Assembly: GCF_002001205.1 (NCBI RefSeq)
Contig: NZ_MUNZ01000086.1
Coordinates: 62,001 to 126,000 of the forward strand
Origin: Hydrogenophaga sp. A37
GTDB taxonomy: Bacteria > Pseudomonadota > Gammaproteobacteria > Burkholderiales > Burkholderiaceae_C
DNA length: 64,000 nucleotides
Direction: 5' to 3'
The stretch's first letter is position 1, and the number at the start of each line of letters is the position of its first letter. The position numbers and the translations under genes were made by a program. The notes under the pieces were generated by a model. It worked only from the letters and a program-made list of their open reading frames with translations. It was not told the origin of the DNA and made no database searches. Below, in pieces: positions 18,980 through 39,271 of this stretch.

Positions 18980-20596
18980 ATGCAGCACCAGAAAATCCTC
19001 GTTCTAGATTTCGGTTCCCAGGTCACTCAGCTCATCGCCCGCCGCGTGCGCGAAGCCCATGTGTACTGCGAAGTCCATCCCTGCGACGTGAGCGACGCCT
19101 GGGTGCGCGAGTTCGCCGCCGACGGCCAGCTCAAGGGCGTGATCCTCTCCGGCAGCCACGCCAGCGTCTACGAAGTGGACGACAAGGCTCCGGATGCCGT
19201 GTTTGAACTGGGCGTGCCCGTGCTGGGCATCTGCTACGGTATGCAGACCATGGCGCAGCAGCTGGGTGGCAAGGTGGAGGCGGGCCACACCCGCGAATTC
19301 GGTTACGCCGAAGTCCGCGCCCGTGGCCACACCCCCCTGCTCAAAGACATCGCCGACTTCCATACCCCCGAAGGCCACGGCATGCTCAAGGTCTGGATGA
19401 GCCACGGTGACAAAGTCACCGAAATGCCCCCGGGCTTCAAGCTCATGGCCAGCACCGACAGCTGCCCCATTGCCGGCATGGCCGATGTGGATCGCGGGTA
19501 CTACGCGGTGCAGTTCCACCCCGAGGTCACGCACACGGTGCAGGGCAGGGCGCTGCTGGAGCGCTTTGTACTCGACATCTGCCAAACGCGGGCCGACTGG
19601 GTGATGCGCGACCACATCGAGGAAGCGGTGCAGAGGATCCGCGAACAAGTGGGTGATGAAGAAGTCATCCTCGGCCTGTCTGGCGGCGTGGATTCTTCGG
19701 TGGCCGCCGCCCTGATTCACCGCGCCATCGGCGACCAACTGACCTGCGTCTTCGTCGACCACGGCCTGCTGCGCCTGAACGAGGGCGACATGGTGATGGA
19801 CATGTTCGTCGGCAAGCTGCACGCCAAGGTGATCCGCGTCGATGCGGCCGACCAGTTCCTCGGCCATCTGGCCGGGGTGAGCGAACCGGAAGCCAAACGC
19901 AAGATCATCGGCCGCGAATTCGTCGAGGTTTTCAAGGCCGAAGCGGCCAAACTAATTTCAAGTGGTGCATCAACAAAAGGCGCCAAGTGGTTGGCACAAG
20001 GCACTATTTATCCGGACGTGATTGAGTCCGGTGGTGCCAAGAGCAAGAAAGCCGTCACCATCAAGAGCCACCACAACGTGGGCGGCCTGCCTGAGCAACT
20101 GGGCCTGAAACTGCTGGAGCCGCTGCGCGACCTGTTCAAGGACGAGGTGCGCGAACTCGGTGTGGCCCTGGGCCTGCCGCACGACATGGTCTACCGCCAT
20201 CCATTCCCGGGCCCGGGCCTGGGCGTGCGCATCCTTGGCGAGGTGAAGAAAGAATTTGCCGACCTGCTGCGCAGGGCCGATGCGATCTTCATTGAAGAGC
20301 TGCGTTCCACCATCGACCACCCCAGCGGCAAGAGCTGGTACGACCTCACCAGCCAGGCCTTCACCGTTTTTCTACCGGTCAAGAGTGTGGGCGTGATGGG
20401 CGACGGTCGCACCTACGACTACGTGGTGGCGCTGCGCGCGGTGCAGACCAGCGATTTCATGACCGCCGATTGGGCCGAGCTGCCCTATGCGCTGCTCAAG
20501 AAGGTGTCCAGTCGCATCATCAACGAGGTGCGCGGCATCAACCGTGTGACCTACGATGTGAGCAGCAAGCCACCCGCGACGATCGAGTGGGAGTGA
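18980..20596 (+). CDS. guaA: GMP synthase (glutamine-hydrolysing)
   Basis: Converts XMP to GMP using glutamine and ATP, 538 residues. The N-terminal class I glutamine amidotransferase has its catalytic cysteine in G-I-C-Y-G near residue 85 and the H-P-E dyad. The ATP-pyrophosphatase domain has the PP-loop S-G-G-V-D-S-S, and the C-terminal dimerisation domain ends T-I-E-W-E. I chose ATG 18980. The last 20 bases are repeated at 34452-34471, which marks the gene's 3' end as the integration site of an island. A patch near 19950-20035 uses more A/T-rich codons than the rest. Confidence 0.97.
20577..20596 (+). repeat. attL: guaA 3' end, left copy of island repeat
   Basis: Last 20 bases of guaA, CGACGATC then GAGTGGGAGTGA. 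The last 12 bases recur exactly at 34460-34471 and 5 of the preceding 8 also match. Confidence 0.75.
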
Positions 20597-21190
20597 CGGG
20601 AGCCAAACAAATCTATATAGATCAACGGGTTGCGGTTGACCGTTGACGATGTGAATGTGTCATCAACGAGTATTCACGCTTTTGCGATACACACTAAACG
20701 ACTTCCGCACCGTCTCCGGGCCTTCTTTGCGCACCGCAGACGCGATTCCCGGCAGCCGCCAAACAGCGGCATCCGGCGGGCAGGGAAGGGCGGTGTTTTC
20801 GTGGCGACTTTGAGTGTCCAGTCTCGCTGGAGGCGGACTCACTCAGTTGCCCTGGTGAAGCTGTTCGCTTTTCCCTTCTGAAGGACCGTTCTGAAGCGAT
20901 GCCGTCGGCCCGTTGGCTCACTAAGGGCGCCCAATATCGGGCATCGATAGAAAGAAGGCGAGGGGTTCCTGCCGAGCGTTCTCAGTCAAATAGCGGACCA
21001 GTCTCGAGAGCAGAACTGCGGCCTGTGTCAAGGATTTGATGGACAGGAGAACTGTCCAGATGTGCGGGTCGTCCATGTTTTGGCACGACCTGCTGGTCGC
21101 GTGAAGCGATACAAACTGTTGAGCGTTCCGATGTGGGTTGGACCTGGCGCGAGCAACTTGACTTCATCGTCAGCCACCACAAGATTTGTT
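20597..21190. other. Gene-poor left end of the guaA island
   Basis: No credible gene is seen here. The segment begins with a perfect palindrome, ATCTATATAGAT (20611-20622). This overlaps an 18-base sequence (20619-20636) that recurs exactly at 47646-47663. The rest alternates AT-rich and GC-rich patches, and short frames on both strands lack ribosome sites or family resemblance. It is most likely decayed island DNA. Confidence 0.5.
20619..20636 (+). repeat. 18-base exact repeat, copy 1
   Basis: AGATCAACGGGTTGCGGT occurs here, 22 bases after the guaA stop, and again at 47646-47663 inside the putative Xer element. The flanks of the two copies do not match. Confidence 0.6.
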
Positions 21191-21210
21191 GGGAAGATCT
21201 CGGTATCCAG

Positions 21211-21507
21211 GCGCAGCACGGCGTGCAGCTGATCGAGGACGACGCGTACGGCGAAACTGGTGGAGCGGCACTTCCCGGCCGGCACCCGCGTCACGCGGCC
21301 CGAAGGCGGCTATTTCCTCTGGCTGGAGCTGCCGCCCGAGGTGGACGCGCTGGCGCTGCACCAGCGGGCCAGGGCCTGCGTCATCAGCACCGCGCCGGGC
21401 GTGCTGTTCTCGGCCGACCACCGCTTCACCCACCACCTGCGGCTGAACGTGGGGCACCAGGGCGATGCACGGTTTGACGGGGCGATCAGGCTGCTGGGCA
21501 AGCTTGG
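21211..21507 (+). pseudogene. Relic of a PLP-dependent aminotransferase (MocR-like) with internal deletion
   Basis: Two pieces of one aminotransferase domain are joined out of frame. Positions 21211-21255 encode Q-L-I-E-D-D-A-Y-G-E, the segment with the aspartate that binds the PLP ring nitrogen. From 21251, one frame over, comes the C-terminal end (K-L-V-E-R-H-F-P-A-G, then G-G-Y-F-L-W-L-E-L-P). The PLP-lysine region between them is missing, as is everything upstream. The layout resembles class I aminotransferase domains of MocR regulators. The second frame has no stop before the downstream transporter. Confidence 0.7.
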
Positions 21508-21745
21508 CAGGCCAAACCCATTTGAGGGGTGCCCCTCGCGCTTGAAACAGCGCGATCACGATGGGCGGCCTTGCAAGGCTGAAGGCGGGCCCTCACGGCC
21601 TTCCCGGGTTTTCATTCCCTTGCAAAGGCACACCGCGTTTCCCGGGCGTTCAATCCCTGTTCAGCGATGCCGCAAACAGAGGGCGCATGATGGGGTGAAA
21701 AGCCAGGGTCAAAATCGCCTGGGTGCCCGAAACGGAAATTCGTTG

Positions 21746-23116
21746 ATGTCCTCACCAACCGCTGCCGAAAGTCCTTCAATGGATGGCGCTCACCTGAAAA
21801 GAAGCTTGGGCTTTGGCGATCTGGTCGCTTTTGGACTGGCCTACATCGCCATCGTGGCGCCTCTGACGAGCCTGGGATTTGTCTGGGCTGCTTCCGACGG
21901 GTTGATCGCCTCGTCTTTCTTGGTGGCGGCCATTTGCATGTACTTCACCGCGCTGAGCTATGTCACCATGAGCCGAGCGATCCCCAACGCCGGTTCCGTT
22001 TACGGGTTTGCACGCCGAAGTCTGGGTCACCGCCTGGGCTTCCTGGCAGGGTGGTTGATCCTGATGGACTACCTGTTGGTCCCCGCCTTGGTCTTCACGC
22101 TCATGGCCATCGGGATGGCGTTGCTGGCTCCCGCATTGGGTCTGGCCGGGTGGATCTGCGTCGTCGCCTTGATCACGCTGGGATTGAACTGGTGCGGTAT
22201 CGGCACCACGTCCAAGATCAACGCCTTTTCGGTGGCGATGCAATGTGTGATCGTGACCGTGGTGCTGGTTCTCACCATCATGGCGCTCAATGGCGGCGCG
22301 GGCAATGGTGCCCTGACCGCCCAACCTTTCGTGGGCGACCGAGGCATTCACTGGCCTCATGTGTTCTCGGGGGCCTCGATCGCCGTCATGGCGTTTCTGG
22401 GCTTTGATGCCATCAGCACGCTCTCGGAGGAAACCCGAGATTCCAGCGACCAGGGCTTGATCGGCAGGGCCATCTTGACGGTGCTGGCGGTGACCAGCGT
22501 GCTGTTCGTGTTCATCGCGTGGGCCGTTGGCAACCTGATGCCTGCCATCGAGATGCAGGACCCCGGTGCCGCCATCTTTGAGCTTCTGGGCCAAACAGTG
22601 GGGCCGTGGGCCTCGATCACGCTGGCGTGGGCACTCGCCGTCGTGGTGGGCTTCACCAATACCCTGCCCATGGTCGCGGGCGTATCAAGGGTGCTCTTCG
22701 CCATGGGGCGCGACCGCCAGTTGCCCGCCACTTTGGGCCGCGTTCATGGCGCCAGCGGCGTGCCGCGTGTGGCGCTGGTGACGGCCACCCTGGTGCCCAT
22801 GGTGACGGCGTTGGTGTTGAGGGATCGGGTGGAGGTCCTGGCATCGATGGTCAGCCTGGGCGCTCTGGGCGGCTTCATCATGCTTCACATATCCGTGATG
22901 GTGTATTTCAGGCACAGCGATCAGCGTTCTGTGTATTTCCACATTGTGGCGCCTGCGCTGGGCTTGATGGTGGCGCTTGCCGTGTTGCTCCGCATGCATC
23001 CGAGCGCTCTGAAAATGGGGGCGGTCTGGCTGACCATGGGCATGGTTTACAGCGCTTGGCTGAATCGGCGTGCCCGCCGGGACCAAGACGGGCAAAGGCC
23101 AAAAGAGCAAGGATGA
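21746..23116 (+). CDS. APC-family amino acid/polyamine permease
   Basis: Inner-membrane transporter of 456 residues with about twelve hydrophobic helices. The first helix motif (F-G-D-L-V-A-F-G-L-A-Y), the S-Y-x-x-M-S-R-x-I-P-N-A-G-S-V-Y segment and F-L-G-F-D-A-I-S-T-L-S-E-E-T near residue 215 place it in the APC superfamily, close to putrescine/amino acid permeases. I chose ATG 21746; a further ATG is at 21779. The frame is open far upstream through the aminotransferase relic, which I regard as chance. It is the first intact gene of the guaA island. Substrate is unknown. Confidence 0.88.
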   Translation: MSSPTAAESPSMDGAHLKRSLGFGDLVAFGLAYIAIVAPLTSLGFVWAASDGLIASSFLVAAICMYFTALSYVTMSRAIPNAGSVYGFARRSLGHRLGFLAGWLILMDYLLVPALVFTLMAIGMALLAPALGLAGWICVVALITLGLNWCGIGTTSKINAFSVAMQCVIVTVVLVLTIMALNGGAGNGALTAQPFVGDRGIHWPHVFSGASIAVMAFLGFDAISTLSEETRDSSDQGLIGRAILTVLAVTSVLFVFIAWAVGNLMPAIEMQDPGAAIFELLGQTVGPWASITLAWALAVVVGFTNTLPMVAGVSRVLFAMGRDRQLPATLGRVHGASGVPRVALVTATLVPMVTALVLRDRVEVLASMVSLGALGGFIMLHISVMVYFRHSDQRSVYFHIVAPALGLMVALAVLLRMHPSALKMGAVWLTMGMVYSAWLNRRARRDQDGQRPKEQG

Positions 23117-23188
23117 GAAGGGGCGCCCATCCCGACAGCGCCGCTCTTGCGGGTGGATTCACCTTCAAAGGGGCTTCGCCAATGAAAC

Positions 23189-23220
23189 AGGGCGACAACA
23201 CCCTATCGTGTTGTCGCCCT
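23189..23220. terminator. Bidirectional hairpin between convergent genes
   Basis: AGGGCGACAACAC (23189-23201) pairs perfectly with GTGTTGTCGCCCT (23208-23220) around a six-base loop. The T-rich side is on the minus strand (GTTTCATT), so it best serves the amidohydrolase gene, but it also lies behind the permease. Confidence 0.75.
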
Positions 23221-23255
23221 GGCCTTCAGGCGCTGGGCGCGGTGCCCAGGCATGG

Positions 23256-25190
23256 TCAGTGGTTGTGGCCGTCCCCGTGCGGCGAGCCCTTCACGATGGC
23301 GTGGCCGGCCGATCCATTGATATTCAACCTGCGGTCATGGGCGCGGGTTTCATGCTTCGACGGGGTCATCAGCGCTGCAAACTTGTCTTTCGCGGCAACG
23401 ACCCGGCCCCCGCTCATGGTCATCAGCACCTGGTTGCGTGCCAGCTTCTCTTCGGGAACGCGCAGGAAGTCTTTGTCCAGGGCGATCAGGTCGGCAAATT
23501 TGCCCTTCTCGATGGAGCCCACGTACTTCTCCAATCGCAGCTGGTAGGCCGCTTCGATGGTGGCTGCGCGGAGCGCGTCAATACGCGACAGCGCAGGATC
23601 GGCGTTGATCGGGCCCTCGAAAATCGGGGCGATGCTGGCAGCGCTGTGCGGGTTCGTCGGGTCACCAGATCTTGTCACGCCCACCTTGAGCGCCAGGAAC
23701 GTGTCGATCGGATCGATCGGCCAGTCGCTCCCAAAGGCCACACGTGCACCGGCGTTGCGAAGGCTGCCAAAGGGTTCCATGCGTGCGAAGCGATCAGGCC
23801 CCAGGTGGTTTTCGGTGTCCCCGATCGAGTAGGGCGCCCGCTGTGCCCATTGGAACGACATGGTCGCACTGACGTTCAGCGGGGCAAAGCGCGGATAGTC
23901 GGCCACGGCCACGGTTTCGCCATGGGCAATGGCAGGTCGGAAGTCGGCACGTGGTCGCTGAGCGCGAACGTATTCCACGGCGTCAAGTGTTTCCCGCACG
24001 GCGCGATCTCCCGTTGCGTGCAGGTGCATGTCAAGACCGCTGTCCACCGCTTCCAGCATCATCGGCTTGATCACACTGGCCGGGAAATACACCTCTCCCA
24101 TATTGGTGCCTGGTACCCAGTTCGGCGCCGCTGCGGTGCCCTGATTCTCGAAGTAGGGGGCCAGCATGGCGCCCGTGTCGCCAGGGGCGTTGACCACGCC
24201 GTCCATGAACACTTTGAGGATCTTGGCCGAAATGCCCGGTGCAACCTGGGGCTCACCCTGGTCGGTCGTGGCAACAAAGGCTTTGGCCTGGGCGACCGCG
24301 GCTTTTGGATCTGCGGCCGTGATGGCGGCATCCATGACATAGGTCAGATGGACGCGGGCGGTAAGTTCGCCCTCGTCTTTCAGTTTCTTGAAGGTTTTGG
24401 CGTGCGCTTCGCCCGCCGCGGCGTCCATGAACGAAGTGATGCCTTGATCGCGCAGGGCTTGCAATGCTGCGCGGCCTTGTTGCAGCAAAAATTCGTCGGT
24501 GTCCGGCGGAATGGCCGCTTTGACTTGCCAGCCTGCGGCATCCTCGCTGATGCCGCTTGGGTTGCCTGCACCATCCCGGAGAAATTTTCCGCCGGTGGGG
24601 TCTGGCGTGGCGGCAGTAACGCCCGCGAGTGTGAATGCCCGCGTGTTGGCCAGCACCGCGTGGAAGTCGCTGGAGGTCACCGCAATGGGGCGGCTCGTGG
24701 TCAGCGCGTCGAGCACGGTTTTGGTGGGGTCACCGTCGATGCCGTTGGTGGCCTGTCGATCCCAGTTGACGGCCTCGAGCCAGGTGTCGGGCTCTTTGTC
24801 CGCGCTCGTGTCCAGGCATGCCTGCAGTCTTTGTGCCAGCTGAGCGTGCGACAGCGGGGCGTAGGCCAAGTCGCAAATCAGCAGGGCTCGGCCACCAGCC
24901 AGGGAGTGCATGTGCCCGTCCACGAAGCCCGGCATCAGCATCTTTCCGCCCAGATCAATGACCTGGGTGTTCTTGCCAATCCAGTCCTTGGCGTCGGAGT
25001 TTTTGCCCACAAACACGATCTTTCCGTCGCGCACGGCGACGGCCTGTTGAATCGAGTTGTTGGCATCCAGTGTGACCACCTTGCCGTTGCGCAGAACGGT
25101 ATCGGCGGTTTCGTCGTCCGATCCACCGCAAGCGGTGATGACGAGCGCCACACATGCCAGCGAGGCGCCAGAAATTTTTGTCCAGTTCAT
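23256..25190 (-). CDS. Amidohydrolase family lipoprotein (YtcJ-like)
   Basis: Metal-dependent hydrolase of the amidohydrolase superfamily, 644 residues, with a lipoprotein signal (lipobox I-T-A-C near residue 20), so probably exported and lipid-anchored. The first metal motif is in P-G-F-V-D-G-H-M-H-S. A barrel-domain histidine (H-A-T-G-D-R-A) and the late D-W-P-I-D motif (G-S-D-W-P) match YtcJ/LAF3-type enzymes. I chose ATG 25190 because AGGAGACA lies just upstream. It is convergent with the permease and lies behind the LuxR gene on the same strand. Substrate is unknown; a cyclic amide or N-acyl compound is the usual type. Confidence 0.85.
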   Translation of the reverse strand: MNWTKISGASLACVALVITACGGSDDETADTVLRNGKVVTLDANNSIQQAVAVRDGKIVFVGKNSDAKDWIGKNTQVIDLGGKMLMPGFVDGHMHSLAGGRALLICDLAYAPLSHAQLAQRLQACLDTSADKEPDTWLEAVNWDRQATNGIDGDPTKTVLDALTTSRPIAVTSSDFHAVLANTRAFTLAGVTAATPDPTGGKFLRDGAGNPSGISEDAAGWQVKAAIPPDTDEFLLQQGRAALQALRDQGITSFMDAAAGEAHAKTFKKLKDEGELTARVHLTYVMDAAITAADPKAAVAQAKAFVATTDQGEPQVAPGISAKILKVFMDGVVNAPGDTGAMLAPYFENQGTAAAPNWVPGTNMGEVYFPASVIKPMMLEAVDSGLDMHLHATGDRAVRETLDAVEYVRAQRPRADFRPAIAHGETVAVADYPRFAPLNVSATMSFQWAQRAPYSIGDTENHLGPDRFARMEPFGSLRNAGARVAFGSDWPIDPIDTFLALKVGVTRSGDPTNPHSAASIAPIFEGPINADPALSRIDALRAATIEAAYQLRLEKYVGSIEKGKFADLIALDKDFLRVPEEKLARNQVLMTMSGGRVVAAKDKFAALMTPSKHETRAHDRRLNINGSAGHAIVKGSPHGDGHNH

Positions 25191-25294
25191 TCTTTGTCTC
25201 CTGCTCACCGTGAGCCGTTGTCATGGTAGGGAGACTGGGCCGCGCTTGGCCCTCTGCAGATGCGGAGGGTGGGCGTGCGTCCCGACGTGCGGGC

Positions 25295-26263
25295 TCAGGG
25301 ATTGGGATGGAGAGCCGATCCCAACTCGACCTTGTTGCGCACCCCCAGTTGCAGATAGATGTTGCGAATGTAGGTGCGAACCGTTGCCGGGGTCAGGTCG
25401 AGCAGGCGGGCGATTTCCTTGTAGGAGTCACCGCGCGCGTACAAGACGGCAACGCTGCGTTCCCGGGGTGGCAAGCGCAGGGCTTGCGAGTCCCGCCCGA
25501 ACGACAGGGCGATCAACTCGCCGCTGGGTTGAAACCACAGTCGGTGGCGACCCAGCGTGACACTGCCATCGCCGGCGTTGATGCGCGCCAGCAGTTCGGG
25601 TGGCAGTGGCGAGCTGAACCAGCCAGGCAGGTTTTCGCGCAGCAGCGCGCCCAGCTGGCCGCCGAGGTAGAGCAGATCACCGTTGCGGTCAGACAGGGCA
25701 AAGTGGTCAGACGCTTGGTGGGTCGAGGCGTTGAGCAGGTTTTGCACCTGGAGATGCCAGTGGTGCAGCAGGTGCCGCGTGAACTCCTCGAACATGACGC
25801 TGGCGAGGTCGTCGAAGGCTGGCTGGTGTTCGTCGCGGTACAGGGAAACGAAAAACAGCATGCCGCTGCCGGGCAGCTCGGCCGTCGTGGCCATGGCATG
25901 GTAAAGACGGTGCTTGCGGGAAAAAGAGGCGACCGCCGGCGCGGGATCGTCATAGCCGCTGAAGCGCACCACCGTGCCCAAGGCTTGCATGGAACCGGTG
26001 GCAAAGTCGTCGACGCCAGCGAGTGCGTTCCATTCGTCAGCGAAGCTGCTGCTCAGGTTGATGCGGCCGTGCAGCCAGTTGCGCCGCGGGTTCTGGGCGT
26101 CCTCGTCGGTCACCTCTCCCCACCAGGCAGACTGGAAAGGCACCAGCTTTTCCAGCACGCGCAGGGCGTCGAGCACCTGCCGCTCGGGCTGTGCCGACCT
26201 GGCCTGGCCGCTCAATGCCAGCAGGCTCTCGCTGAAGGCGCGCAAGGATTCGACGGCGTACAT
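25295..26263 (-). CDS. LuxR-type transcriptional regulator
   Basis: 322-residue protein whose last 65 residues form a LuxR/FixJ helix-turn-helix (L-P-P-R-E-R-x-V-A..G-D-S-Y-K-E-I-A..L-x-L-T-P-A-T-V-R-T-Y-I-R-N-I-Y). The first 250 residues have no recognised sensor domain and no receiver phosphorylation site is apparent, so it is probably a single-component regulator. It ends 104 bases before the amidohydrolase lipoprotein on the same strand; control of that gene is a reasonable guess. Confidence 0.85.
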   Translation of the reverse strand: MYAVESLRAFSESLLALSGQARSAQPERQVLDALRVLEKLVPFQSAWWGEVTDEDAQNPRRNWLHGRINLSSSFADEWNALAGVDDFATGSMQALGTVVRFSGYDDPAPAVASFSRKHRLYHAMATTAELPGSGMLFFVSLYRDEHQPAFDDLASVMFEEFTRHLLHHWHLQVQNLLNASTHQASDHFALSDRNGDLLYLGGQLGALLRENLPGWFSSPLPPELLARINAGDGSVTLGRHRLWFQPSGELIALSFGRDSQALRLPPRERSVAVLYARGDSYKEIARLLDLTPATVRTYIRNIYLQLGVRNKVELGSALHPNP

Positions 26264-26452
26264 GGCTCAGGCGCGCAAAAGAACGGGTTGTACAGGCATG
26301 CCGGTGGTGGGTGCCCCGCGTCTTTGTCTGTGCCGACGCATGTGGGCCGCTATGTTCGGGCGAGCGTACCTGATGCGGCCAACTCGGTGGGCATCGGTCC
26401 ACTGGCCTCGGCCCGACGGCAGGGGCAGGCCCGACGAGCGCTGGTGCGCGCA

Positions 26453-27355
26453 TCACGCCTTGAACAGTTCGATCACCAGGGCTCTCAGCCACTGCTGCAT
26501 GGGCACTTGCTGGTAGCGGCGGCTCCAGTGCAGGGCGACGGTGAAGTCCCTCAAGGGCAGGCGCGGTTCGAGCAGGCAAAAGCCCTCGGCGGGCGCAAAG
26601 CCTTGCGCGATCTCCCGGGGCATCAGAACCCCCAGGTCGGTGGAGCGCACGATGGCCGGCAGCGCCAGAAAGGTCGAGGTCACCAGGCGCACCTGGTGTT
26701 CCAGATGGAGCATCTGCAAGATGCGCAACGTATCGGTGTGGGAGCGCACGGCGACATAGTGCAATTGGTTCAGGCGTTCCAGTGCCAGCGAGCCCGATTT
26801 GGCGTAGCGGGTGATGGGGTGGTCGGCGCGCAACAGCAGTGCGTAGCGGTCGGTCAACAAGTCTTCTTTGGCGGTGTCCTTCGCAGCGGGCAGGAAGCCG
26901 ATCGCGATATGCAGTTGGCCGGTGTCCAGCGCAGCAGCCACTTCACCGGGCGGCCAGGCCCTGGCTTGCAGTTGCATGTGGGGCGCCCGTTCCTCCATCG
27001 CCGCCATCAGCTTCGGCAGGAAACGCGCTTCGCCAATGTCGGTGAGGTGCAGGCGAACCTCTTCGGTGGAGGTCAGCGGATCGAACTGGTCGGACTCCTG
27101 CAAACCCGCTTCGAACAGGGCCATGCCCGCCTGCACCGAGCGCGCCAGGCGGTCCGCCCGCTCGGTGGGGCGCACGCCGCCCATGGCGCGCTCGAAGATC
27201 GGATCCCTTAGCACCAGCCGCAGCCGCGTCAGTGCCTGGCTGGTGGCGGGTTGCGACAAGCCCAGTTGCTCGGCCGCTCGGCTGATGTTGCGCGTGCGGT
27301 AGATCGCGTCGAACACCCGCAGCAGGTTGAGGTCCAGCGTTTCAATATTCGTCAT
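26453..27355 (-). CDS. LysR-family regulator, probable controller of the mandelate cluster
   Basis: 300-residue LysR protein. The N-terminal winged helix (L-N-L-L-R-V-F-D-A-I-Y...S-R-A-A-E-Q-L-G-L-S-Q-P-A-T-S) is followed by a substrate-binding domain. I chose ATG 27355, the family start (D-L-N-L-L-R), though the frame is open 22 codons upstream. It is divergent from the benzoylformate decarboxylase gene across 84 AT-rich bases, the classic LysR layout. An aromatic acid such as mandelate or benzoylformate as inducer is inference. Confidence 0.9.
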   Translation of the reverse strand: MTNIETLDLNLLRVFDAIYRTRNISRAAEQLGLSQPATSQALTRLRLVLRDPIFERAMGGVRPTERADRLARSVQAGMALFEAGLQESDQFDPLTSTEEVRLHLTDIGEARFLPKLMAAMEERAPHMQLQARAWPPGEVAAALDTGQLHIAIGFLPAAKDTAKEDLLTDRYALLLRADHPITRYAKSGSLALERLNQLHYVAVRSHTDTLRILQMLHLEHQVRLVTSTFLALPAIVRSTDLGVLMPREIAQGFAPAEGFCLLEPRLPLRDFTVALHWSRRYQQVPMQQWLRALVIELFKA

Positions 27356-27439
27356 ATGGATATTACTTATTAGTCTCATATTATTGATCAATGATGGATG
27401 CGGCCGCAGACTTGCCTCCATTCACCAGCCGAGCCTGCC
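27356..27439. promoter_or_regulatory. Divergent regulatory region, LysR gene / mandelate cluster
   Basis: AT-rich gap in GC-rich surroundings. It contains two direct ATATTA copies (27360-27365 and 27378-27383) and a palindrome ATTGATCAAT (27383-27392). These are candidate LysR-binding elements; no clean T-N11-A site stands out. Confidence 0.45.
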
Positions 27440-29059
27440 ATGACCGCACCTGACACCCAACGCCCACCCACCGATGCCCAGCCCACCGTGCGCGAGGCGG
27501 TGATTCAACTGATGCGCGACCTCGGCATCGACACCGTGTTCGGCAACCCGGGTTCGACCGAGTTGCCGATGTTCCGCGACTACCCGTCTGATTTCAGGTA
27601 CGTGCTCGGCTTGCAGGAGTCGGTGGTGATCGGCATGGCCGATGGCTATGCCCAGGCCACGCGCAATGCCTCGATGGTCAACCTGCATTCGGCGGCGGGT
27701 GTGGGCCATGCCATGGGCAACATCTTCACGGCGTTCAAGAACCAGACGCCGATGATCGTGACCGCCGGCCAGCAGTCGCGTTCCATCCTGCCCTTTGACC
27801 CATTTCTGTTCGCGGCCCAGGCGACCGACCTGCCCAAGCCCTACGTGAAATGGGCCGTCGAGCCGGCGCGGGCCGAAGATGTGCCGTTGGCACTGGCCCG
27901 CGCCTACCGCATCGCCATGCAGCCGCCTTGCGGCCCGGTATTTGTTTCGATCCCGGCCGACGACTGGGATCGAACCACCGAGTGGGTGACGCCACGCCAG
28001 ATGAGCCAGGCCATCGGGCCCGATCCGGTATCGATCACTCGTGTGGCGACCGCCCTGAACGCCAGCCGCAGGCCCGCCATCGTGGTGGGGGCTGGTGTGG
28101 ACCGGGACGGCGCGGTCGGGCGCGTGGTGGCCCTGGCCGAACAGCACCGGGCCGCCGTGTACACAGCGCCCATGAGCGCTCGGTGTGGTTTCCCGGAGCG
28201 GCATCCGCTGTTCGCTGGGTTTCTCCCGGCCATGCGCGAGCGCATCGTTCAGCGGCTGGCCGAACACGACCTGATTCTGGTGCTGGGCGCTCCGGCCTTC
28301 AGCTACCACGTCGAAGGGCAGGGGCCTCACATTCCAGCGGGCGCGACCTTGTTCCATATCGTCGATGACCCCCAGACCGCCGCCTGGGCGCCGGTGGGCG
28401 ACAGCGTGGTGGCGAGCCTGCACCTGGCCCTGGATGCCTTGCTGGAACACAGTGCCCCGCCGCAGCGCGCGGCACCCACCGGGCGCGCCACGCCACAGGA
28501 GGCTGTCGCCGGCGTTCCGATGAGCGTGCCCTATGTCTTGCAGTCGCTGGACCGTGCGCGCCAGCCGGGTGACGTGGTGGTGGAGGAGGCGCCCGGTTCA
28601 CGCAGCGACATCCAGGCCCACCTGCCCATGGCAGGCGCCGACAGCTTCTACACCATGGCCAGTGGGGGTCTGGGACACGGCATGCCTGCGGCTGTGGGGG
28701 TCGCGCTCGCGCGACAGCGCCAAGGCCAGGCAGGGCGGGTCATCGCCTTGATCGGAGACGGGTCCAGCATGTATGCCATCCAGGCGCTCTACACCGCCGC
28801 TCAGATGAATGTGCCCATGACCTTCGTGATCCTGAACAACCGGCGCTACGCCGCCTTGCAGGACTTTGCGCCGGTGTTCGGCTATGCGCCTGGCGTCAAG
28901 CCCGCGGGCACCGACCTGCCCAACCTGGACTTCGTGATGCTCGCGCAAGGGCAGGGCATGACGGCGGAACGCGCCGAGGCCCCCGATGCGTTGGCGCCCG
29001 CCCTGGAGCGTGCACTGCGGCATCCCGGCCCCTTCCTTATCGAGATCGTGGTGGCTTGA
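27440..29059 (+). CDS. mdlC: Benzoylformate decarboxylase (thiamine diphosphate enzyme)
   Basis: Decarboxylates benzoylformate to benzaldehyde, 539 residues. The family's catalytic residues are in place: serine in G-N-P-G-S-T-E-L-P, the cofactor-activating glutamate in L-Q-E-S-V-V, histidine in N-L-H-S-A-A-G, and a second histidine in F-S-Y-H. The thiamine-diphosphate/Mg motif is G-D-G-S...N-N. The pattern follows Pseudomonas putida MdlC closely rather than acetolactate synthase. I chose ATG 27440. It is first in a run with aldehyde dehydrogenase and mandelate dehydrogenase, which fits the mandelate pathway. Confidence 0.9.
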   Translation: MTAPDTQRPPTDAQPTVREAVIQLMRDLGIDTVFGNPGSTELPMFRDYPSDFRYVLGLQESVVIGMADGYAQATRNASMVNLHSAAGVGHAMGNIFTAFKNQTPMIVTAGQQSRSILPFDPFLFAAQATDLPKPYVKWAVEPARAEDVPLALARAYRIAMQPPCGPVFVSIPADDWDRTTEWVTPRQMSQAIGPDPVSITRVATALNASRRPAIVVGAGVDRDGAVGRVVALAEQHRAAVYTAPMSARCGFPERHPLFAGFLPAMRERIVQRLAEHDLILVLGAPAFSYHVEGQGPHIPAGATLFHIVDDPQTAAWAPVGDSVVASLHLALDALLEHSAPPQRAAPTGRATPQEAVAGVPMSVPYVLQSLDRARQPGDVVVEEAPGSRSDIQAHLPMAGADSFYTMASGGLGHGMPAAVGVALARQRQGQAGRVIALIGDGSSMYAIQALYTAAQMNVPMTFVILNNRRYAALQDFAPVFGYAPGVKPAGTDLPNLDFVMLAQGQGMTAERAEAPDALAPALERALRHPGPFLIEIVVA

Positions 29060-29106
29060 AGGCCACAGCGACTGAACTTTCACAACCACCTGACGGAGAC
29101 AAGACC

Positions 29107-30558
29107 ATGAGCGATATCCAGATGCTGATCGGCGGCGAGCAACGCTTCGCCTCCAACGGAGCGACCTTCGAGCGCCGCAACCCGCTGGACCACAGCGTGG
29201 CCACACGGGCCCCCGCCGCCACACCCGACGACGCGCGTGCCGCGGTGGACGCGGCGGCCAAGGCCTTCCCCGCGTGGGCGGCCATGGGTCCGGGCGAGCG
29301 CCGCGGGCTGCTGATGAAAGCGGCTCACGCGCTCGAAGCCAAGGGAGCGGCCTTTGCGGCAGCCATGGCGTCCGAAGTCGGTGCATCCGGTATCTGGGCG
29401 GGCTTCAATGTGCACCTCGCGGCCGACATGCTGCTCGAAGCCGCCTCGATCACCACCCAGATCAGCGGTGAGGTGATTCCCTCCAACGTGCCGGGCAGCC
29501 TGGCCATGGCGGTGCGCCAGCCCGCCGGTGTGGTGCTGGGCATCGCACCCTGGAACGCCCCCGTGATTCTGGGTGTGCGCGCCATCGCCACGCCGCTGGC
29601 CTGCGGCAACACCGTGGTGCTCAAGGGCTCCGAGCTCAGCCCGGCCACCCACGGACTGATCATCGAAGCCTTGCAAGAGGCCGGCCTGCCCGCCGGCGTG
29701 GTGAACTTCGTGACCAACGCCCCGGCCGATGCCGGCGCCGTGGTGGAGGCCATGGTCGCGCACCCGGCGGTGCGCCGTGTGAATTTCACCGGGTCCACCA
29801 AAGTGGGCCGCATCATTGCCCAGACCTGCGCCAAATACCTCAAGCCCGCCGTGCTTGAGCTTGGTGGCAAGGCGCCGATGCTGGTGCTGGACGATGCCGA
29901 CCTGGACGCGGCCGTGGCGGGTGCCGCGTTCGGCGCCTTCGCCAACTCGGGCCAGATCTGCATGTCCACCGAGCGCCTCATCGTGGACCAGAAGATCGCC
30001 GATGATTTCGTGGCCAAGCTCGCGGCCAAAGCCCAGTCGCTGCCGCTGGGTGATCCGCGCAACGGGCCGGTGGTGCTGGGCTCGGTGGTCGACATGGCCA
30101 CGGTCGAGCGCTGCAACGCTTTGATCGACGACGCGCTGGCCAAGGGCGCCACGCTGGTGTGCGGTGGCAAGGCCGACAACACGCTCATGCCGGCCACGCT
30201 GCTGGACCATGTCACGCCCGAGATGGCGATCTACCGCGAAGAGTCCTTCGCACCGGTCAAGGCCATCGTTCGCGTCAACGGCGTGGAAGAGGCTGTGGCC
30301 TGCGCCAACGACAACGAATTCGGCCTCTCGTCCGCCGTGTTCGGGCGCGATGTCGCGCGCGCCTGGCAGGTCGCGGCGCGCATCGAGTCGGGCATCTGCC
30401 ATGTGAACGGACCGACCGTTCACGACGAAGCACAGATGCCGTTCGGCGGCGTCAAGAACTCGGGCTACGGCCGGTTTGGCGGCAAGGCCGGCATTGAGGC
30501 CTTTACCGAGCTGCGCTGGATCACGGTGCAGACCGCGCCTCGCCACTACCCGTTCTGA
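29107..30558 (+). CDS. NAD(P)-dependent aldehyde dehydrogenase, probable benzaldehyde dehydrogenase
   Basis: Oxidises an aldehyde to its acid, 483 residues. The general-base glutamate is in V-L-E-L-G-G-K-A-P at about residue 251 and the catalytic cysteine in G-Q-I-C-M-S at about residue 285. The Rossmann element F-T-G-S-T-K-V-G is present. The overall pattern resembles vanillin/salicylaldehyde/benzaldehyde dehydrogenases. ATG 29107 has a GGAGACA ribosome site. It follows the decarboxylase by 47 bases, so benzaldehyde to benzoate is the likely reaction (the mdlD role). Confidence 0.88.
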   Translation: MSDIQMLIGGEQRFASNGATFERRNPLDHSVATRAPAATPDDARAAVDAAAKAFPAWAAMGPGERRGLLMKAAHALEAKGAAFAAAMASEVGASGIWAGFNVHLAADMLLEAASITTQISGEVIPSNVPGSLAMAVRQPAGVVLGIAPWNAPVILGVRAIATPLACGNTVVLKGSELSPATHGLIIEALQEAGLPAGVVNFVTNAPADAGAVVEAMVAHPAVRRVNFTGSTKVGRIIAQTCAKYLKPAVLELGGKAPMLVLDDADLDAAVAGAAFGAFANSGQICMSTERLIVDQKIADDFVAKLAAKAQSLPLGDPRNGPVVLGSVVDMATVERCNALIDDALAKGATLVCGGKADNTLMPATLLDHVTPEMAIYREESFAPVKAIVRVNGVEEAVACANDNEFGLSSAVFGRDVARAWQVAARIESGICHVNGPTVHDEAQMPFGGVKNSGYGRFGGKAGIEAFTELRWITVQTAPRHYPF

Positions 30559-30562
30559 CCCC

Positions 30563-31504
30563 ATGGCACAGACCATGAACATCTCCATCGTGGGCGCAGG
30601 CGCCATGGGGTCTTTTTTTGGCGGGCTGCTGGCCGAGGCGGGTCACGCGGTCACGCTGATCGACGTCAATGAAGCCCACCTGAGCGCTATTCAGACCCAA
30701 GGGCTGCTGCTGGACACCGACGCGGGGCAGCGCCGCGTCCAGGGCCTGCGGGCCTGCCGCCCGCACGAGGCCGCGGAGCTGCCCGACCTCCTGATGGTTT
30801 TCACCAAGACGCTGCACACGACCCAGGCCTTGCTGGGCGTGCGGCATCTGATCGGTGACCGTACCCATGTGCTGTCCTTGCAGAACGGGCTGGGCAACGT
30901 CGAGAAGATCACCGAATACGTGCCCATCGAACGCGTGTTGGTGGGCGTGACCACCTGGCCGGCCGATCTGGTTGGTCCGGGCGAGGTGCATTCGCATGGT
31001 CAGGGCGGTGTGCGCCTGATGTCGGCCGATGGGCGCGACCATGTCCTGATTGCGACGGTGGTGACGGCGTTTTCCGATGCCGGCTTGCTGGCCCGCAAGG
31101 ACGAAGCGGTCTGGTGTGCCATCTGGGAGAAGGTAGCTTTCAACGCGGCGCTGAATTGCATTTGTGGCGTGAGCGGCTCCACCGTGGGTCAGGTGGGCGA
31201 TCTGGCTGAGAGCAGGGTGCTGGCGCACGCGGTGGTGAGCGAAGTCCTGGCCGTGGCCCAGGCCCATGGCATCGCGGTGAAACCAGACGCGGTGCACGCC
31301 ACGGTGGACCACGCGCTGGACCACCACAAGAACCACAAACCCTCGATGCTGCAGGACCTGTTGGCCGGCCGTGCCACCGAGATCGATGCGATCTGCGGAT
31401 CGGTGCTGCGCCAGGGTCGGTCGCTGGGTGTCGCGACCCCATTGACCGAGGCCTTTCATGCCTTGGTGCGCCTCAAGGAAGCCTCCTCGCGACCGGCGGT
31501 CTGA
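30563..31504 (+). CDS. Ketopantoate reductase-like oxidoreductase (ApbA/PanE family)
   Basis: 313-residue NADPH-dependent reductase. The N-terminal Rossmann fold (I-V-G-A-G-A-M-G-S-F-F-G) is followed by the ApbA C-terminal domain with the catalytic lysine region (W-E-K-V-A-F-N-A-A-L-N). It lies 4 bases after the aldehyde dehydrogenase stop, inside the mandelate cluster. A pantothenate role is therefore less likely than reduction or oxidation of a 2-oxo or 2-hydroxy acid related to the pathway; that is inference. Confidence 0.82.
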   Translation: MAQTMNISIVGAGAMGSFFGGLLAEAGHAVTLIDVNEAHLSAIQTQGLLLDTDAGQRRVQGLRACRPHEAAELPDLLMVFTKTLHTTQALLGVRHLIGDRTHVLSLQNGLGNVEKITEYVPIERVLVGVTTWPADLVGPGEVHSHGQGGVRLMSADGRDHVLIATVVTAFSDAGLLARKDEAVWCAIWEKVAFNAALNCICGVSGSTVGQVGDLAESRVLAHAVVSEVLAVAQAHGIAVKPDAVHATVDHALDHHKNHKPSMLQDLLAGRATEIDAICGSVLRQGRSLGVATPLTEAFHALVRLKEASSRPAV

Positions 31505-31574
31505 CCGGCCACGGGTCGTCTGGTCCCGCTTTTCATTTCCCCGTTCCCATTTCATCCACGACAGGAGACAAACT

Positions 31575-32636
31575 GTGCTTTCAATTCTCAAACGCCCCCC
31601 TGTGCGCCGCTGCGCCGCCTCGCTCACCCTGGCTGCGGTCGCGGTCCTGACCTGTTCGGCTGCCTCGGCCCAGCAGGTGGTGCTGCGCGTGCACCACTTT
31701 CTGCCCAGCACCTCCAACGCACAGGTCAAGCTGATCCAGCCATGGTGCGACAAGATCGCCAAGGAGTCGGGCGACAAGCTGAAGTGCCAGATCTACCCCT
31801 CGATGCAACTGGGCGGCACGCCCCCGCAGTTGATCGATCAGGTGCGCGACGGCGTGGTGGACATGGTCTGGACCGTCCCGACCTATGCGGCCGGACGCTT
31901 CACCAAGTCGGAAGTCTTCGAGTTGCCGTGGATGGCGTCCACATCCAAGGCGGGCAGCCAGGCGCTCTGGACCTACGTCGACAAGAACGCGCAAGACGAA
32001 TACAAGGGCGTGCGGCGCATCTTCATGCACCTGCACGACGGGGCGCTGTTCCATTTTTCCAAGGCGCAACCCAAGACCATGGAGGAGCTGCGGGGCTTGA
32101 AGGTTCGTGCGGCCACCCGCATCAACGCCCGCATGTTGCAGGCCCTGGGTGCCACACCCGTCGTGATGCCACTGCCCCAGGTGCCCGAGGCCTTGTCCAA
32201 GGGACTGGTGGATGGCGCGGCCGTTCCATGGGAAGGCTCGCCGGCCATTCGCCTGCCCGACTTCGCCAAATACCACCTGGATGTGCCCGCCGGCGCGCCC
32301 CGCATCTCCAACACCATCTTTCTGTTTGCCATCAACCAGGCCAAGTACGACGCGCTGCCTGCGGACCTGAAGCGGGTGATCGATGCCAACAGCGGTGTGG
32401 CCACCTCCGCCTGGGCGGGCGAGACGGGTTTCGACAACGTGGTCGAGACCTTCAAGAAAGCCGCCAAGGACAGTGGCGGCACTTTCTACAACTTGCCCGA
32501 CGCGGAGTACCAGCGCTGGGTCAAAGCCACCGACCTGGTCGACGACGAATGGATCAAGGAAGCCAACGCCAAGGGGGCCGACGGTCGCAAACTGCTGGAC
32601 GAAGCCCGCGCTCTGGTCAAGCAGCACAGCAAATGA
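31575..32636 (+). CDS. TRAP transporter substrate-binding protein (DctP family)
   Basis: Periplasmic binding protein of a TRAP carboxylate importer, 353 residues. A signal peptide ends near A-S-A-Q-Q. The DctP elements (L-P-S-T-S, M-Q-L-G-G-T-P-P-Q-L-I-D-Q-V-R-D-G) and the conserved arginine region (G-L-K-V-R-A-A-T-R) are present. Start is GTG 31575 with an AGGAGACA site 6 bases upstream. Its stop overlaps the mandelate dehydrogenase start. The permeases DctQ and DctM are absent from the window. Mandelate or benzoylformate is a plausible ligand, by context only. Confidence 0.87.
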   Translation: MLSILKRPPVRRCAASLTLAAVAVLTCSAASAQQVVLRVHHFLPSTSNAQVKLIQPWCDKIAKESGDKLKCQIYPSMQLGGTPPQLIDQVRDGVVDMVWTVPTYAAGRFTKSEVFELPWMASTSKAGSQALWTYVDKNAQDEYKGVRRIFMHLHDGALFHFSKAQPKTMEELRGLKVRAATRINARMLQALGATPVVMPLPQVPEALSKGLVDGAAVPWEGSPAIRLPDFAKYHLDVPAGAPRISNTIFLFAINQAKYDALPADLKRVIDANSGVATSAWAGETGFDNVVETFKKAAKDSGGTFYNLPDAEYQRWVKATDLVDDEWIKEANAKGADGRKLLDEARALVKQHSK

Positions 32637-33790
32637 GCCAGCGGCGCGCGGCCCACCGGCTCACGGTGAACGACTGGCGGGAGGCGGCGCGCCGTTCGCT
32701 GCCGCGCTTTGTGTTCGAGTACTTGGACGGCGCGGCCGAAGACGGGCTCGGGCTGGTGCGCAACCGCACCGCGCTCGACGCCGTCACGCTCGCGCCGCGC
32801 GTGCTACGCGACACCCGGCAGATCGATCCGTCGATCACGCTGCTGGGCCAGACGTGGGCGCAGCCCTTCGGCATCGCCCCCACGGGTCTGAATGGACTGG
32901 TCCGGCCCGGGGGCGACCTCATGGGCGCGGCGGCGGCGCAGGCCATGGGTGTGCCCTTCGTGCTGTCAACGGCCTCCAATGAGCGGCTGGAGGCCGTTCG
33001 GGAGGCAGCGCCGAACGGCCAGCTCTGGTTGCAGCTCTATGTGATGGAAGACCACAGCATCGCAGAGCAGATGCTGCGGCGCGCCCGCCTGGCGCGGTTC
33101 GATGCGCTGGTGCTGACCGTGGACGTGGCGGTCAGTGGCCTGCGGGAGCGCGATGTGCGCAACGGATTCAAGCTGCCATTCAAGCCCACGCCGTCGCTCG
33201 TGCTGGACCTGCTGCGCCACCCCGCGTGGTCGATGCGACTGGCGGCGGGCGGAGCGCCCCAGTTCGCCAACCTGGTCGAAAACCCCGGGGCCCGCATGTC
33301 GGCCCAGGCCCAGGCCGCGCTGCTGGCGCGCGCCATGGACCGCGGACTGGACTGGGCCTCGTTGCGTTGGTTGCGCCAGCACTGGGACGGCCCGCTCATC
33401 CTCAAGGGCATCCTGCACCCGGACGATGCCCGGCGGGCTTTGGAGGAGGGCGTTGACGCGCTGATCGTGTCCAACCACGGCGCCCGCCAGCTGGACCTGG
33501 CGCCAGCCTCCATCACGCAGCTGCCGGCCATCGTGGATGCCGTGCACGACCGCCTGCCGGTGCTGATGGACAGCGGCATCCGCCGAGGGGCCGACGTGGC
33601 GCGCGCACTGGCTTTGGGTGCGCACGCCGTATTGATCGGGAGGCCAGTGTTGTACGGGCTGGCGGTCGACGGTCAGGCCGGTGTTCAGAGCGTGCTCCAG
33701 ACCTTGGCGGATGAGCTGGAGCGCAACCTGATATTGCTGGGGGAAGCCGACGTCGGCTCACTGCGCGCCAGACGAACCCAGGCCGCCTGA
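32633..33790 (+). CDS. mdlB: FMN-dependent 2-hydroxy acid dehydrogenase, probable (S)-mandelate dehydrogenase
   Basis: Oxidises 2-hydroxy acids, here most likely mandelate to benzoylformate, 385 residues, TIM barrel. FMN and catalytic motifs are present: Y in L-Q-L-Y-V, T-V-D-V-A-V-S-G-L-R-E-R-D near residue 160, the invariant histidine and arginine in S-N-H-G-A-R-Q-L-D, and D-S-G-I-R-R-G. The R-E-R-D and E-A-L/W-A-S-L-R-W-L-R elements resemble P. putida MdlB. The ATG overlaps the TRAP gene stop. It supplies the first step of a pathway whose next two steps are encoded upstream. Confidence 0.88.
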   Translation: MSQRRAAHRLTVNDWREAARRSLPRFVFEYLDGAAEDGLGLVRNRTALDAVTLAPRVLRDTRQIDPSITLLGQTWAQPFGIAPTGLNGLVRPGGDLMGAAAAQAMGVPFVLSTASNERLEAVREAAPNGQLWLQLYVMEDHSIAEQMLRRARLARFDALVLTVDVAVSGLRERDVRNGFKLPFKPTPSLVLDLLRHPAWSMRLAAGGAPQFANLVENPGARMSAQAQAALLARAMDRGLDWASLRWLRQHWDGPLILKGILHPDDARRALEEGVDALIVSNHGARQLDLAPASITQLPAIVDAVHDRLPVLMDSGIRRGADVARALALGAHAVLIGRPVLYGLAVDGQAGVQSVLQTLADELERNLILLGEADVGSLRARRTQAA

Positions 33791-33821
33791 GTCTCGACCC
33801 TGCGCTCAAGTGAGCGCAGGG

Positions 33822-33985
33822 TCAGTGCTTGACCGGTTCCTGCGTGCCCTGGTTGCGCCAGTCGCGCGGTGCGCAACCAAATTGCTCCTTGAAGCAGCGG
33901 CTGAAATGGGTCGCGTCGTTGAAGCCCCAGGAGAAGGCGATGTCGCTGACGCTGCGAGCACCAAACCGCGGATCGATCAGGTCCC
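33822..33985 (-). pseudogene. C-terminal relic of an AraC-family regulator
   Basis: About 50 residues remain, covering the second helix-turn-helix of an AraC protein (D-P-R-F-G-A-R-S-V-S-D-I-A-F-S-W-G-F-N-D, then H-F-S-R-C-F-K) and the end of the protein. The rest of the gene is gone, replaced by an IS3-family remnant joined near 33978-33986. It lies behind mdlB on the opposite strand and may once have regulated the cluster. Confidence 0.8.
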
Positions 33986-34354
33986 GCCGCTTAACAGCCT
34001 TCAGAGCCTTTTTTTTCGAACGACCTCCTGCAGGATCTGCTTGTCCAGCGTCAGGTCGGCCACGATGCGCTTCAGACGAGCGTTCTCGTCTTCGAGCATC
34101 TTCAAGCGCTTGAGCTCGGTCACGCCCAGATCCCCGAACTTCTTCTTCGACGTGTAGTACGTCGCTTCGGACACGCCGATCTGGCGGCACACATCGACCA
34201 CCGGGGTTCCTGACTCAGCCAACCGCAGCGCGTAGGCGATCTGTTCCTCTGAAAATCTCGACCTCTTCATTGCTTCTCCTTGCGCCCCTTCGGGCTTGCC
34301 GGAAAGCAACCGTACCTCTAGTTTTGAAAAGTCCGGAATTCGGGGGAGACGTCA
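33986..34354 (-). mobile_element. Truncated IS3-family element (IS407-group-like)
   Basis: One end of an insertion sequence: a probable terminal sequence starting TGACGTCTCCCCC on the minus strand (outer edge 34354), orfA complete, and only about a dozen codons of orfB before the AraC relic begins. An A8 run (34009-34016 on the minus strand) sits where IS3 elements make a -1 frameshift, and the -1 frame continues K-K-A-L-K-A-V-K-R-R as orfB does. The other end and most of orfB are missing. Confidence 0.75.
34001..34270 (-). CDS. IS3-family transposase OrfA
   Basis: 89-residue protein with the OrfA helix-turn-helix (F-S-E-E-Q-I-A-Y-A-L-R...V-C-R-Q-I-G-V-S-E-A-T-Y-Y) and leucine-zipper region (L-K-M-L-E-D-E-N-A-R-L-K-R-I-V-A-D-L). 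I chose ATG 34270 at M-K-R-S-R-F. The stop lies just past the A8 slippery run. Without orfB the element cannot transpose by itself. Confidence 0.85.
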   Translation of the reverse strand: MKRSRFSEEQIAYALRLAESGTPVVDVCRQIGVSEATYYTSKKKFGDLGVTELKRLKMLEDENARLKRIVADLTLDKQILQEVVRKKRL

Positions 34355-34451
34355 CTGGATGCGCTATCGAATGCGACGGTAATTCTGTCGGTATCGTGCC
34401 ATTCCTCGGAGGGCACACAGTGCGCTTTCACTCTGAGCCGCGACCGACCAT
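34355..34451. other. Island DNA between the IS remnant and the right repeat
   Basis: Ninety-seven bases without a gene. An integrase would normally lie near one end of such an island; none is present here or at the left end. Confidence 0.5.
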
Positions 34452-34471
34452 TGACAATAGAGTGGGAGTGA
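34452..34471 (+). repeat. attR: right copy of the guaA 3'-end repeat
   Basis: TGACAATA then GAGTGGGAGTGA. Read in the frame of guaA it encodes T-I-E-W-E-stop, as does the real guaA end at 20577-20596, although three bases differ. Codon-level conservation with base differences argues that this derives from a guaA 3' end rather than arising by chance. Confidence 0.75.
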
Positions 34472-34512
34472 GTGGACACAGCCCATGAGACGCCTCAGCA
34501 CCAGACATAACA

Positions 34513-34528
34513 CTGTTCAAATATACAG
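34513..34528. promoter_or_regulatory. LexA (SOS) box
   Basis: CTGTTCAAATATACAG fits the CTGT-N8-ACAG consensus with an AT-rich core. It overlaps a TATACA that could serve as a -10 box and lies 48 bases before the start of the 2H phosphoesterase gene. Confidence 0.65.
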
Positions 34529-34576
34529 TTTTGACGCAAAATGGCACCCCGCCAACGCAGCCCAAGGAGGTGTTGC

Positions 34577-35169: not shown

Positions 35170-36561
<1,392 letters not shown>

Positions 36562-39199: not shown

Positions 39200-39271
39200 G
39201 CGCTGTTGTTCGGCCGACCGTGCCAAAACGCTGTGGCATGGCACCATGCGGGCACTACAAGGAGACCGACC

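Follow-up and report, generated by a model that had tools for sequence, protein, structure and literature searches.

Why should a predicted mandelate pathway lie directly behind guaA, a housekeeping gene? The question is raised by a stretch of 64,000 nucleotides from Hydrogenophaga sp. A37 (the window; coordinates count from its first base), in which guaA is followed by a block of 13,875 bp (20597-34471) that carries the pathway and closes with a copy of the final bases of guaA. We are nearly certain that a site-specific insertion at guaA brought the block here. We further consider it probable that the block is an integrase-less passenger module, formally a cis-mobilizable element (CIME), that occupies the guaA 3' end and depends on an integrase from elsewhere.

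The boundaries of the block are marked by a direct repeat. The stop codon of guaA ends at 20596, and the final 20 bases of the gene (20577-20596) are found again 13,875 bp downstream (34452-34471) with 17 of 20 identities, the last 12 (GAGTGGGAGTGA) being identical. These coordinates and counts, reported in an earlier note on this DNA, were confirmed here, as was its observation that both copies spell T-I-E-W-E-stop. With up to one mismatch allowed, GAGTGGGAGTGA occurs at just these two sites on both strands of the window; 100 dinucleotide shuffles of the window gave a mean of 0.23 matches, with two or more in 3 of 100. ACNATNGAGTGGGAGTGA has two occurrences in the entire 5.55-Mb genome, both at this locus (reversed control pattern, 0). 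The earlier note took the right copy for a second guaA 3' end, which does not hold: the sequence preceding this copy, CGACCGACCATTGACAATA, is not guaA sequence, and the identity stems from the recombination core. A duplicated guaA end was ruled out, because elements that lie beside differing guaA sequences all keep TTGACAATA. As this motif belongs to the element, T-I-E-W-E in the right-hand copy does not derive from a second guaA. The right repeat is the element's own half-site. As a control for chance, the last 24 bases of each guaA were used in a fuzzy search of 838 kb downstream of 60 guaA ends in 59 genomes (up to 20 kb per end), which gave no second copy, and one in the window. The same search overlooked right ends later found in G024, G075, G077 and G086, because the core alone is common to guaA and element.

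An unoccupied counterpart of the site is present within the genus. The sample comprised 67 genomes, in 61 of which the guaA end was located; 60 downstream stretches were compared, two of them from G014. In G027, guaA directly precedes the gene for a 2H phosphoesterase that borders the block on its right in the window, and the joined flanks of the window align across the junction (879 columns, 75.8%). A second pair of occupied and empty sites is formed by G024, which has a 1.8-kb element, and G014, G017 and G032 (130-136 of 156 positions identical). The earlier note had proposed to look in relatives for an empty site and for the same right end elsewhere, and both are there: G027 runs from guaA straight into the 2H gene, and in G021, G070 and G078 the 2H gene is directly preceded by a window-like right edge ending in TTGACAATAGAGTGGGARTGA. 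In G025, G083 and G033, guaA and the 2H gene are separated by 2-5 kb of different sequence in which no right end was recognised. The contrast that the note drew between accessory genes inside and conserved genes outside stands for the cargo where tested, a benzoylformate decarboxylase gene being present in 6 of the 67 genomes, the window's included. It fails for the flanking 2H gene, whose own distribution is uneven (15 of 60 genomes, with eight at 49% identity or less).

The right end of the block recurs well beyond this locus. The core motif TTGACAATAGAGTGGGARTGA, with up to two mismatches, matched in 12 of the 67 genus genomes (reversed control, 0); the match in G080 is the native guaA end and was set aside, leaving 11, A37 included. 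A related right-end pattern was found in at least 119 stretches, some of which may be chance matches, in a collection of 84,980 species, mostly in beta- or alphaproteobacteria. A pair of GACGGTA-like repeats with a spacing of 12 bp lies upstream of 39 of 111 testable cores and downstream of 0 of 111; among random segments, 373 of 200,000 have such a pair. Its commonest place (21 of 39), 76 and 64 bp before the core motif, is also its place in the window, and 27 distinct right ends, including the window's, have this spacing. Among the other 26, 58 columns reach a conservation of at least 80%, and the window's right end matches at 54 of these. Because the sequences were selected by core and arms, conservation there is expected, and the columns outside them were counted separately (20 of 24). 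We infer that the GACGGTA-like repeats are integrase arm sites. Seven genus genomes have the right end on the guaA contig, two of them with an integrase, G021 (beside guaA, which lies 76.8 kb from the right end) and G088 (165 kb). The five without one span 13.9 kb in the window, 4.5 kb in G075, 3.5 kb in G086, 1.8 kb in G024 and 1.5 kb in G077. In G065, G070, G073 and G078, all of which have an integrase, the right end is on a contig other than guaA's, and its link to guaA is presumed for that reason. The window-type right end occurs in the guaA-integrase genomes G021 and G088 (guaA contig) and G065, G070 and G078 (other contig).

The absence of an integrase from the block is a point that the earlier note did not raise. 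Nine genomes of the genus have a tyrosine integrase gene whose start is about 310 bp or less from the end of guaA, and the three products that were scanned each have Phage_integrase and arm-binding domains. A profile built from five of these integrases gave nine scores of at least 765 bits in the 67 genomes, all directly after guaA, the next match scoring 282; judged by profile and position, the nine form a guaA-specific class. This profile search found no integrase of the class in the A37 genome, where the highest score was 250 bits, for a match some 27 kb upstream of guaA and beyond the window. In searches of window positions 20001-35000 with three guaA integrases (tblastn) no integrase was recognised (best E 0.01), the profile had no match at E 10 among the open reading frames (ORFs) of at least 55 residues in the block, and no integrase remnant was recognised in its left 660 bp. 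The five genomes with the right end on the guaA contig and no integrase there have none of the guaA class anywhere in the genome, at a completeness of 59% for G075 and 86% for G086. Where guaA lay in the same 8-kb sequence block, an integrase match was missing from 11 of the 13 loci; as blocks of this size favour short elements, no rate is drawn from this figure. The right-end motif of L158, L168, L181, L199, L202, L206 and L233 is followed after a few hundred bases by an integrase, a pattern that the insertion of one integrase-bearing element behind another element would leave. Upstream of guaA, the A37 genome encodes a tyrosine integrase at a distance of about 27 kb, outside the window (G000:C140:52475-53653), and integrases lie about 27-43 kb upstream likewise in G007, G017, G023, G025, G027, G080, G084 and G089, which suggests a second insertion hotspot in the vicinity.

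The left end sets the block apart from integrase-bearing islands. It differs from the left ends of those examined and matches that of G086 over 238 bp at 83%. The layout, which we term D-type, is the same across modules: core, CGGG, about 20 bases, (A)TCAAYG, about 15 bases and TTGAYRA. A BLAST search of 399 family genomes with the A37 left end matched the window alone, and a gapped pattern derived from the first ten examples was found in 8 of the 399 (10 places, 7 genera; reversed control, 0), three of the eight being Methylibium, Aquariibacter and Rubrivivax genomes already encountered. The D-type end is therefore recognised by its layout and not by overall similarity. It is present at 15 sites including the window, nine at a guaA stop and six directly after a right core. 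In the 18 stretches compared it occurs 13 times, eight times at a guaA stop and five times directly after the right core of another module; G086 (guaA stop, one base off the pattern) and L255 (after a right core) are further sites. Right ends were found for 9 of the 13, eight with both arms and one with one arm, and G086 provides a tenth with both arms; for the remaining four there was none in the downstream sequence searched (about 6 to 20 kb).

In none of the ten D-type modules delimited at both ends was an integrase recognised. The integrase profile, applied to the ORFs of 18 modules, matched solely a remnant in G077, which has a type-A left end still bearing an integrase start (the control recovered all nine integrases), and an all-against-all comparison of the 18 found no gene common to all D-type modules, such as might encode a new recombinase. 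Parts of the cargo are nevertheless common to several modules. G383, G492 and G494 have genes in common near both module ends, about 2 kb of the Aquariibacter module recur in Methylibium module 2 and its right part in the Piscinibacter module, and an acetyltransferase/TacA pair is common to G086 and G077, the latter having another left end. Several modules stand head to tail. Series with left ends other than D-type are present in Polaromonas (1.6 + 1.5 kb) and G496 (2.8 + 2.1 kb). Methylibium has 1.4 + 16 kb and then a third left end, its modules 1 and 2 being alike over 236 bp on the left (94%) and about 51 bp on the right (84%) with nothing alike found between. Rubrivivax albus has 12 + 18 kb with an integrase piece beside guaA, and in Piscinibacter a 9.9-kb module follows a right core, guaA lying outside the stretch compared. 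The small modules carry HipA and a TacA-like antitoxin with acetyltransferase (G086), AbiEi/AbiEii-like pairs in both modules (G496), and a Gp49/helix-turn-helix (HTH) pair with a beta-lactamase-fold protein (G075), as well as regulators; many module ORFs have no Pfam match.

We propose that a tyrosine integrase of the guaA-specific, P4-like class, supplied in trans by another element, would join the circularised module to the end of guaA by recombination within GAGTGGGARTGA. After integration guaA would retain its last codons and stop, the left attachment site (attL) would consist of guaA and the D-type left end, and the right one (attR) of the module's right end, with its two arm-like repeats and TTGACAATA, followed by the core. 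If an incoming integrase excised the module, guaA would again adjoin the 2H gene. The module may still be mobile. Several observations weigh against this proposal. The first 300 bp of the A37 left end have no GACGGTA arm, which is present in five of ten D-type left ends, and the A37 attL may be inactive for this reason. A D-type left end was not found on any integrase-bearing element, and hence no matching integrase was identified; nor was the A37 module seen as a circle or at another site in any genome examined. The 2H gene is at least 49% identical in seven other genus genomes, of which just one (G027) is empty, and the remnants of an insertion sequence (IS) and an AraC regulator close to the block's right end allow an origin by later rearrangement.

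That the 20-base repeat is coincidental and the gene order ancestral is hardly credible. A 12-mer repeat alone would indeed be a weak sign, but the repeat is unique in the genome, the empty site is exact and both ends are common to modules of other genera; a chance repeat was rejected by the shuffle test and the genome-wide uniqueness. A far stronger competitor, which we regard as quite possible if not probable, is that deletion and IS activity stripped an ordinary integrase-bearing guaA island of its integrase and transfer genes and left an inert remnant with both ends. This account overlaps with the passenger module on what is present and differs on whether such modules still move. It agrees with the remnants at either edge (IS and AraC, right; aminotransferase, left), G077 with its integrase start exemplifies the route, and CIMEs are described as arising by decay (PMC5704250). 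However, the A37 left end is unlike those of the integrase-bearing islands examined and matches the ends of modules without a recognised integrase, ten of them delimited at both ends, and the best tblastn match in the window (E 0.01) was not recognisable as an integrase remnant. We think it rather unlikely that the block arose in two steps, a small D-type module with toxin-antitoxin or similar cargo, like that of G086 (3.5 kb), having settled at guaA before the mandelate operon arrived by homologous recombination or IS activity, so that the 13.9 kb were never one mobile unit. Truncated genes at both edges would fit this history, as would the operon's G+C of 0.675 against 0.57-0.59 at the island edges and its occurrence in congeners, in like order and not seen at guaA (G070, 330 kb away; G035 and G084, other contigs). 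The size of the block does not by itself require two steps, because D-type left ends also head modules of 8-18 kb elsewhere (G383, Piscinibacter, Methylibium and Rubrivivax).

Extending the passenger-module reading, the guaA 3' end of Burkholderiales may host a cassette-like system of stackable non-autonomous modules (1.4-18 kb) that are inserted and shuffled by visiting guaA-specific integrases, a generalisation that we offer tentatively and with some doubt. Such modules would be defined by the D-type left end and the arm-pair/core right end alone, with exchangeable cargo, and the A37 block would be one module with a whole mandelate pathway where others carry toxin-antitoxin pairs and other genes. 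If integrase-less guaA modules do move in trans, they give addiction modules and catabolic operons a way to spread and to accumulate behind a housekeeping gene, one that integrase-based island finders would overlook. Their conserved ends (left signature, arm pair and core) serve both as an easy pattern to search with and as a substrate for recombination tests.

The features of the locus are collected in the table. The LysR-type regulator, decarboxylase, aldehyde dehydrogenase, ketopantoate-reductase-like protein, DctP protein and flavin mononucleotide (FMN) dehydrogenase probably form a mandelate pathway, the substrates being assigned from protein families; we presume that the ketopantoate-reductase-family protein may be a D-mandelate dehydrogenase. 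In the other five genomes with the decarboxylase it was not seen beside guaA, although the guaA island of G078 is split over contigs and the decarboxylase there could lie inside it. Its surroundings in G070, G035, G078 and G084 keep the operon order in the parts found, with the FMN dehydrogenase in two of the four. In G070 the operon shares a contig with guaA, and in the remaining genomes it is on contigs other than guaA's. The permease, amidohydrolase and LuxR genes were not found in these four congener stretches. An identical type of IS end and OrfA remnant occurs in two different guaA elements, that of G024 (L110) and the window (34001-34360).

Table. Features of the guaA locus of Hydrogenophaga sp. 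A37 (window coordinates).
Feature	Coordinates	Strand	Evidence or remark
guaA, insertion target, intact coding sequence	18980..20596	+	up to 98% identity to congeners; no internal stop
attL core GAGTGGGAGTGA	20585..20596	+	inside 20-base repeat 20577-20596; matches published core GAGTGGGA
D-type left end: CGGG, ~20 bases, ATCAACG, then TTGACGA	20597..20843	+	20606-20843 83% identical to G086
Pyridoxal-phosphate (PLP) aminotransferase C-terminus, probable remnant	21260..21500	+	NCBIfam MocR_like_YczR E 1.2e-6, weak; residues 3-77 of ORF from 21260
Amino acid permease	21746..23116	+	PF13520
Amidohydrolase, Amidohydro_3 family	23256..25208	-	PF07969 E 8.5e-73
LuxR-type regulator	25295..26263	-	PF00196
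LysR-type regulator	26453..27421	-	adjoins mandelate operon; same position in 4/4 congener stretches
Benzoylformate decarboxylase	27440..29059	+	NF005485 801.5 bits (cut-off 493); PDB benzoylformate decarboxylases
Aldehyde dehydrogenase, presumed benzaldehyde dehydrogenase	29107..30558	+	PF00171; ~81% identity in 4/4 congener stretches
Ketopantoate-reductase-family protein	30575..31504	+	PF02558/PF08546; PDB relatives
DctP-type tripartite ATP-independent periplasmic (TRAP) solute-binding protein	31575..32636	+	PF03480; 78-80% identity in 4/4 congener stretches
FMN 2-hydroxyacid dehydrogenase, (S)-mandelate dehydrogenase-like	32633..33790	+	PF01070; PDB 6bfg (S)-mandelate dehydrogenase E 1.4e-90
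Truncated AraC-type regulator, C-terminal HTH only	33822..34190	-	FeaR-like fragment; runs into IS remnant
IS OrfA remnant (HTH_Tnp_1)	34001..34309	-	PF01527; similar remnant in G024 element
Right end of element	34361..34471	+	common to 26 other distinct right ends
Arm-like pair GACGGTA (34375), GTCGGTA (34387)	34375..34393	+	76 and 64 bp before core motif
attR core GAGTGGGAGTGA	34460..34471	+	inside 20-base repeat 34452-34471; element motif TTGACAATA at 34451-34459
2H phosphoesterase, first right-flank gene	34541..35152	+	PF13563; directly after guaA in G027

Beyond the block, a LexA-like box, ACTGTTCAAATATACAGT, lies at 34512-34529 just upstream of the 2H gene, and boxes of varying likeness (by eye) precede the 2H gene in G021, G025, G027, G033, G070, G078, G082 and G083. 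The 2H gene product is possibly a DNA-damage-regulated RNA-end enzyme. One open frame at 35170-36561 has TadA-like cytidine/adenosine-deaminase-type and alpha/beta hydrolase domains in an apparent fusion, and a protein with several EF-hand calcium-binding motifs (41771-42640, minus strand) is encoded beside a penicillin-amidase-family protein (39206-41758).

The guaA 3' end is a known island target, as the earlier note stated: the guaA-associated islands GIsul2 and ICERspD18B are described at this site with a direct repeat containing the core GAGTGGGA (PMC9376610, PMC7775301), and PMC7775301 cites Song et al. 2012 for guaA-associated genomic islands. The A37 block resembles these islands, as described, in its place at the 3' end of a guaA that is kept intact, evident from the G027 empty site and the open guaA frame, and in its flanking direct repeat with this core (20585-20596 and 34460-34471). 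Unlike them, it has no recognised integrase of its own near attL, where theirs is of the P4 type with alpA nearby, and its left end differs from those of the integrase-bearing islands examined here; alpA did not turn up in Pfam scans of the block ORFs, although no search was aimed at it. Nor does the block resemble an integrative and conjugative or integrative and mobilizable element with its own integration and excision functions, none being recognised in searches for tyrosine integrases and, for other recombinases, in Pfam scans alone. There was no transfer gene among the Pfam matches of the scanned block ORFs, which had other matches or none, and no search was aimed at relaxases.

Movement without an integrase gene has a precedent at this site, the GIsul2 integrase being described as moving an att-flanked CR2-sul2 unit that excludes the integrase gene (PMC9376610). 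The A37 block is likewise a segment between two guaA-type att sites without an integrase gene. In that account, however, CR2-sul2 sits inside an integrase-bearing island, whereas the A37 module is alone at guaA. A CIME, described as a decay product, keeps attL and attR while the integration genes are gone (PMC5704250). Such an element is related through its ends to an integrase-bearing element of that site and is mobilised once an element integrates next to it. The block retains both sites, and its right end is akin to those of the integrase-bearing G021, G065, G070, G078 and G088, although no such element with this left end was found. Unlike CIMEs as described, the D-type modules keep the same ends across several genera with no gene common to all, and some stand head to tail. 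The microcin H47 island of E. coli is reported to be about 13 kb long, with imperfect flanking repeats and no recombinase gene, and to be excised by outside functions (PMC3191183). It differs from the A37 block, in the features described, by its repeats of 144-148 bp and its other cargo. Among the open-access papers searched, we saw none that describes integrase-less guaA modules whose ends are alike. In integron cassette arrays, whose attC sites are recombined by IntI, different cargo lies between like ends, head to tail. The modules at guaA share this arrangement, the site here being the guaA att core. The target and the core were already known, and the new part is the integrase-less guaA modules with common ends.

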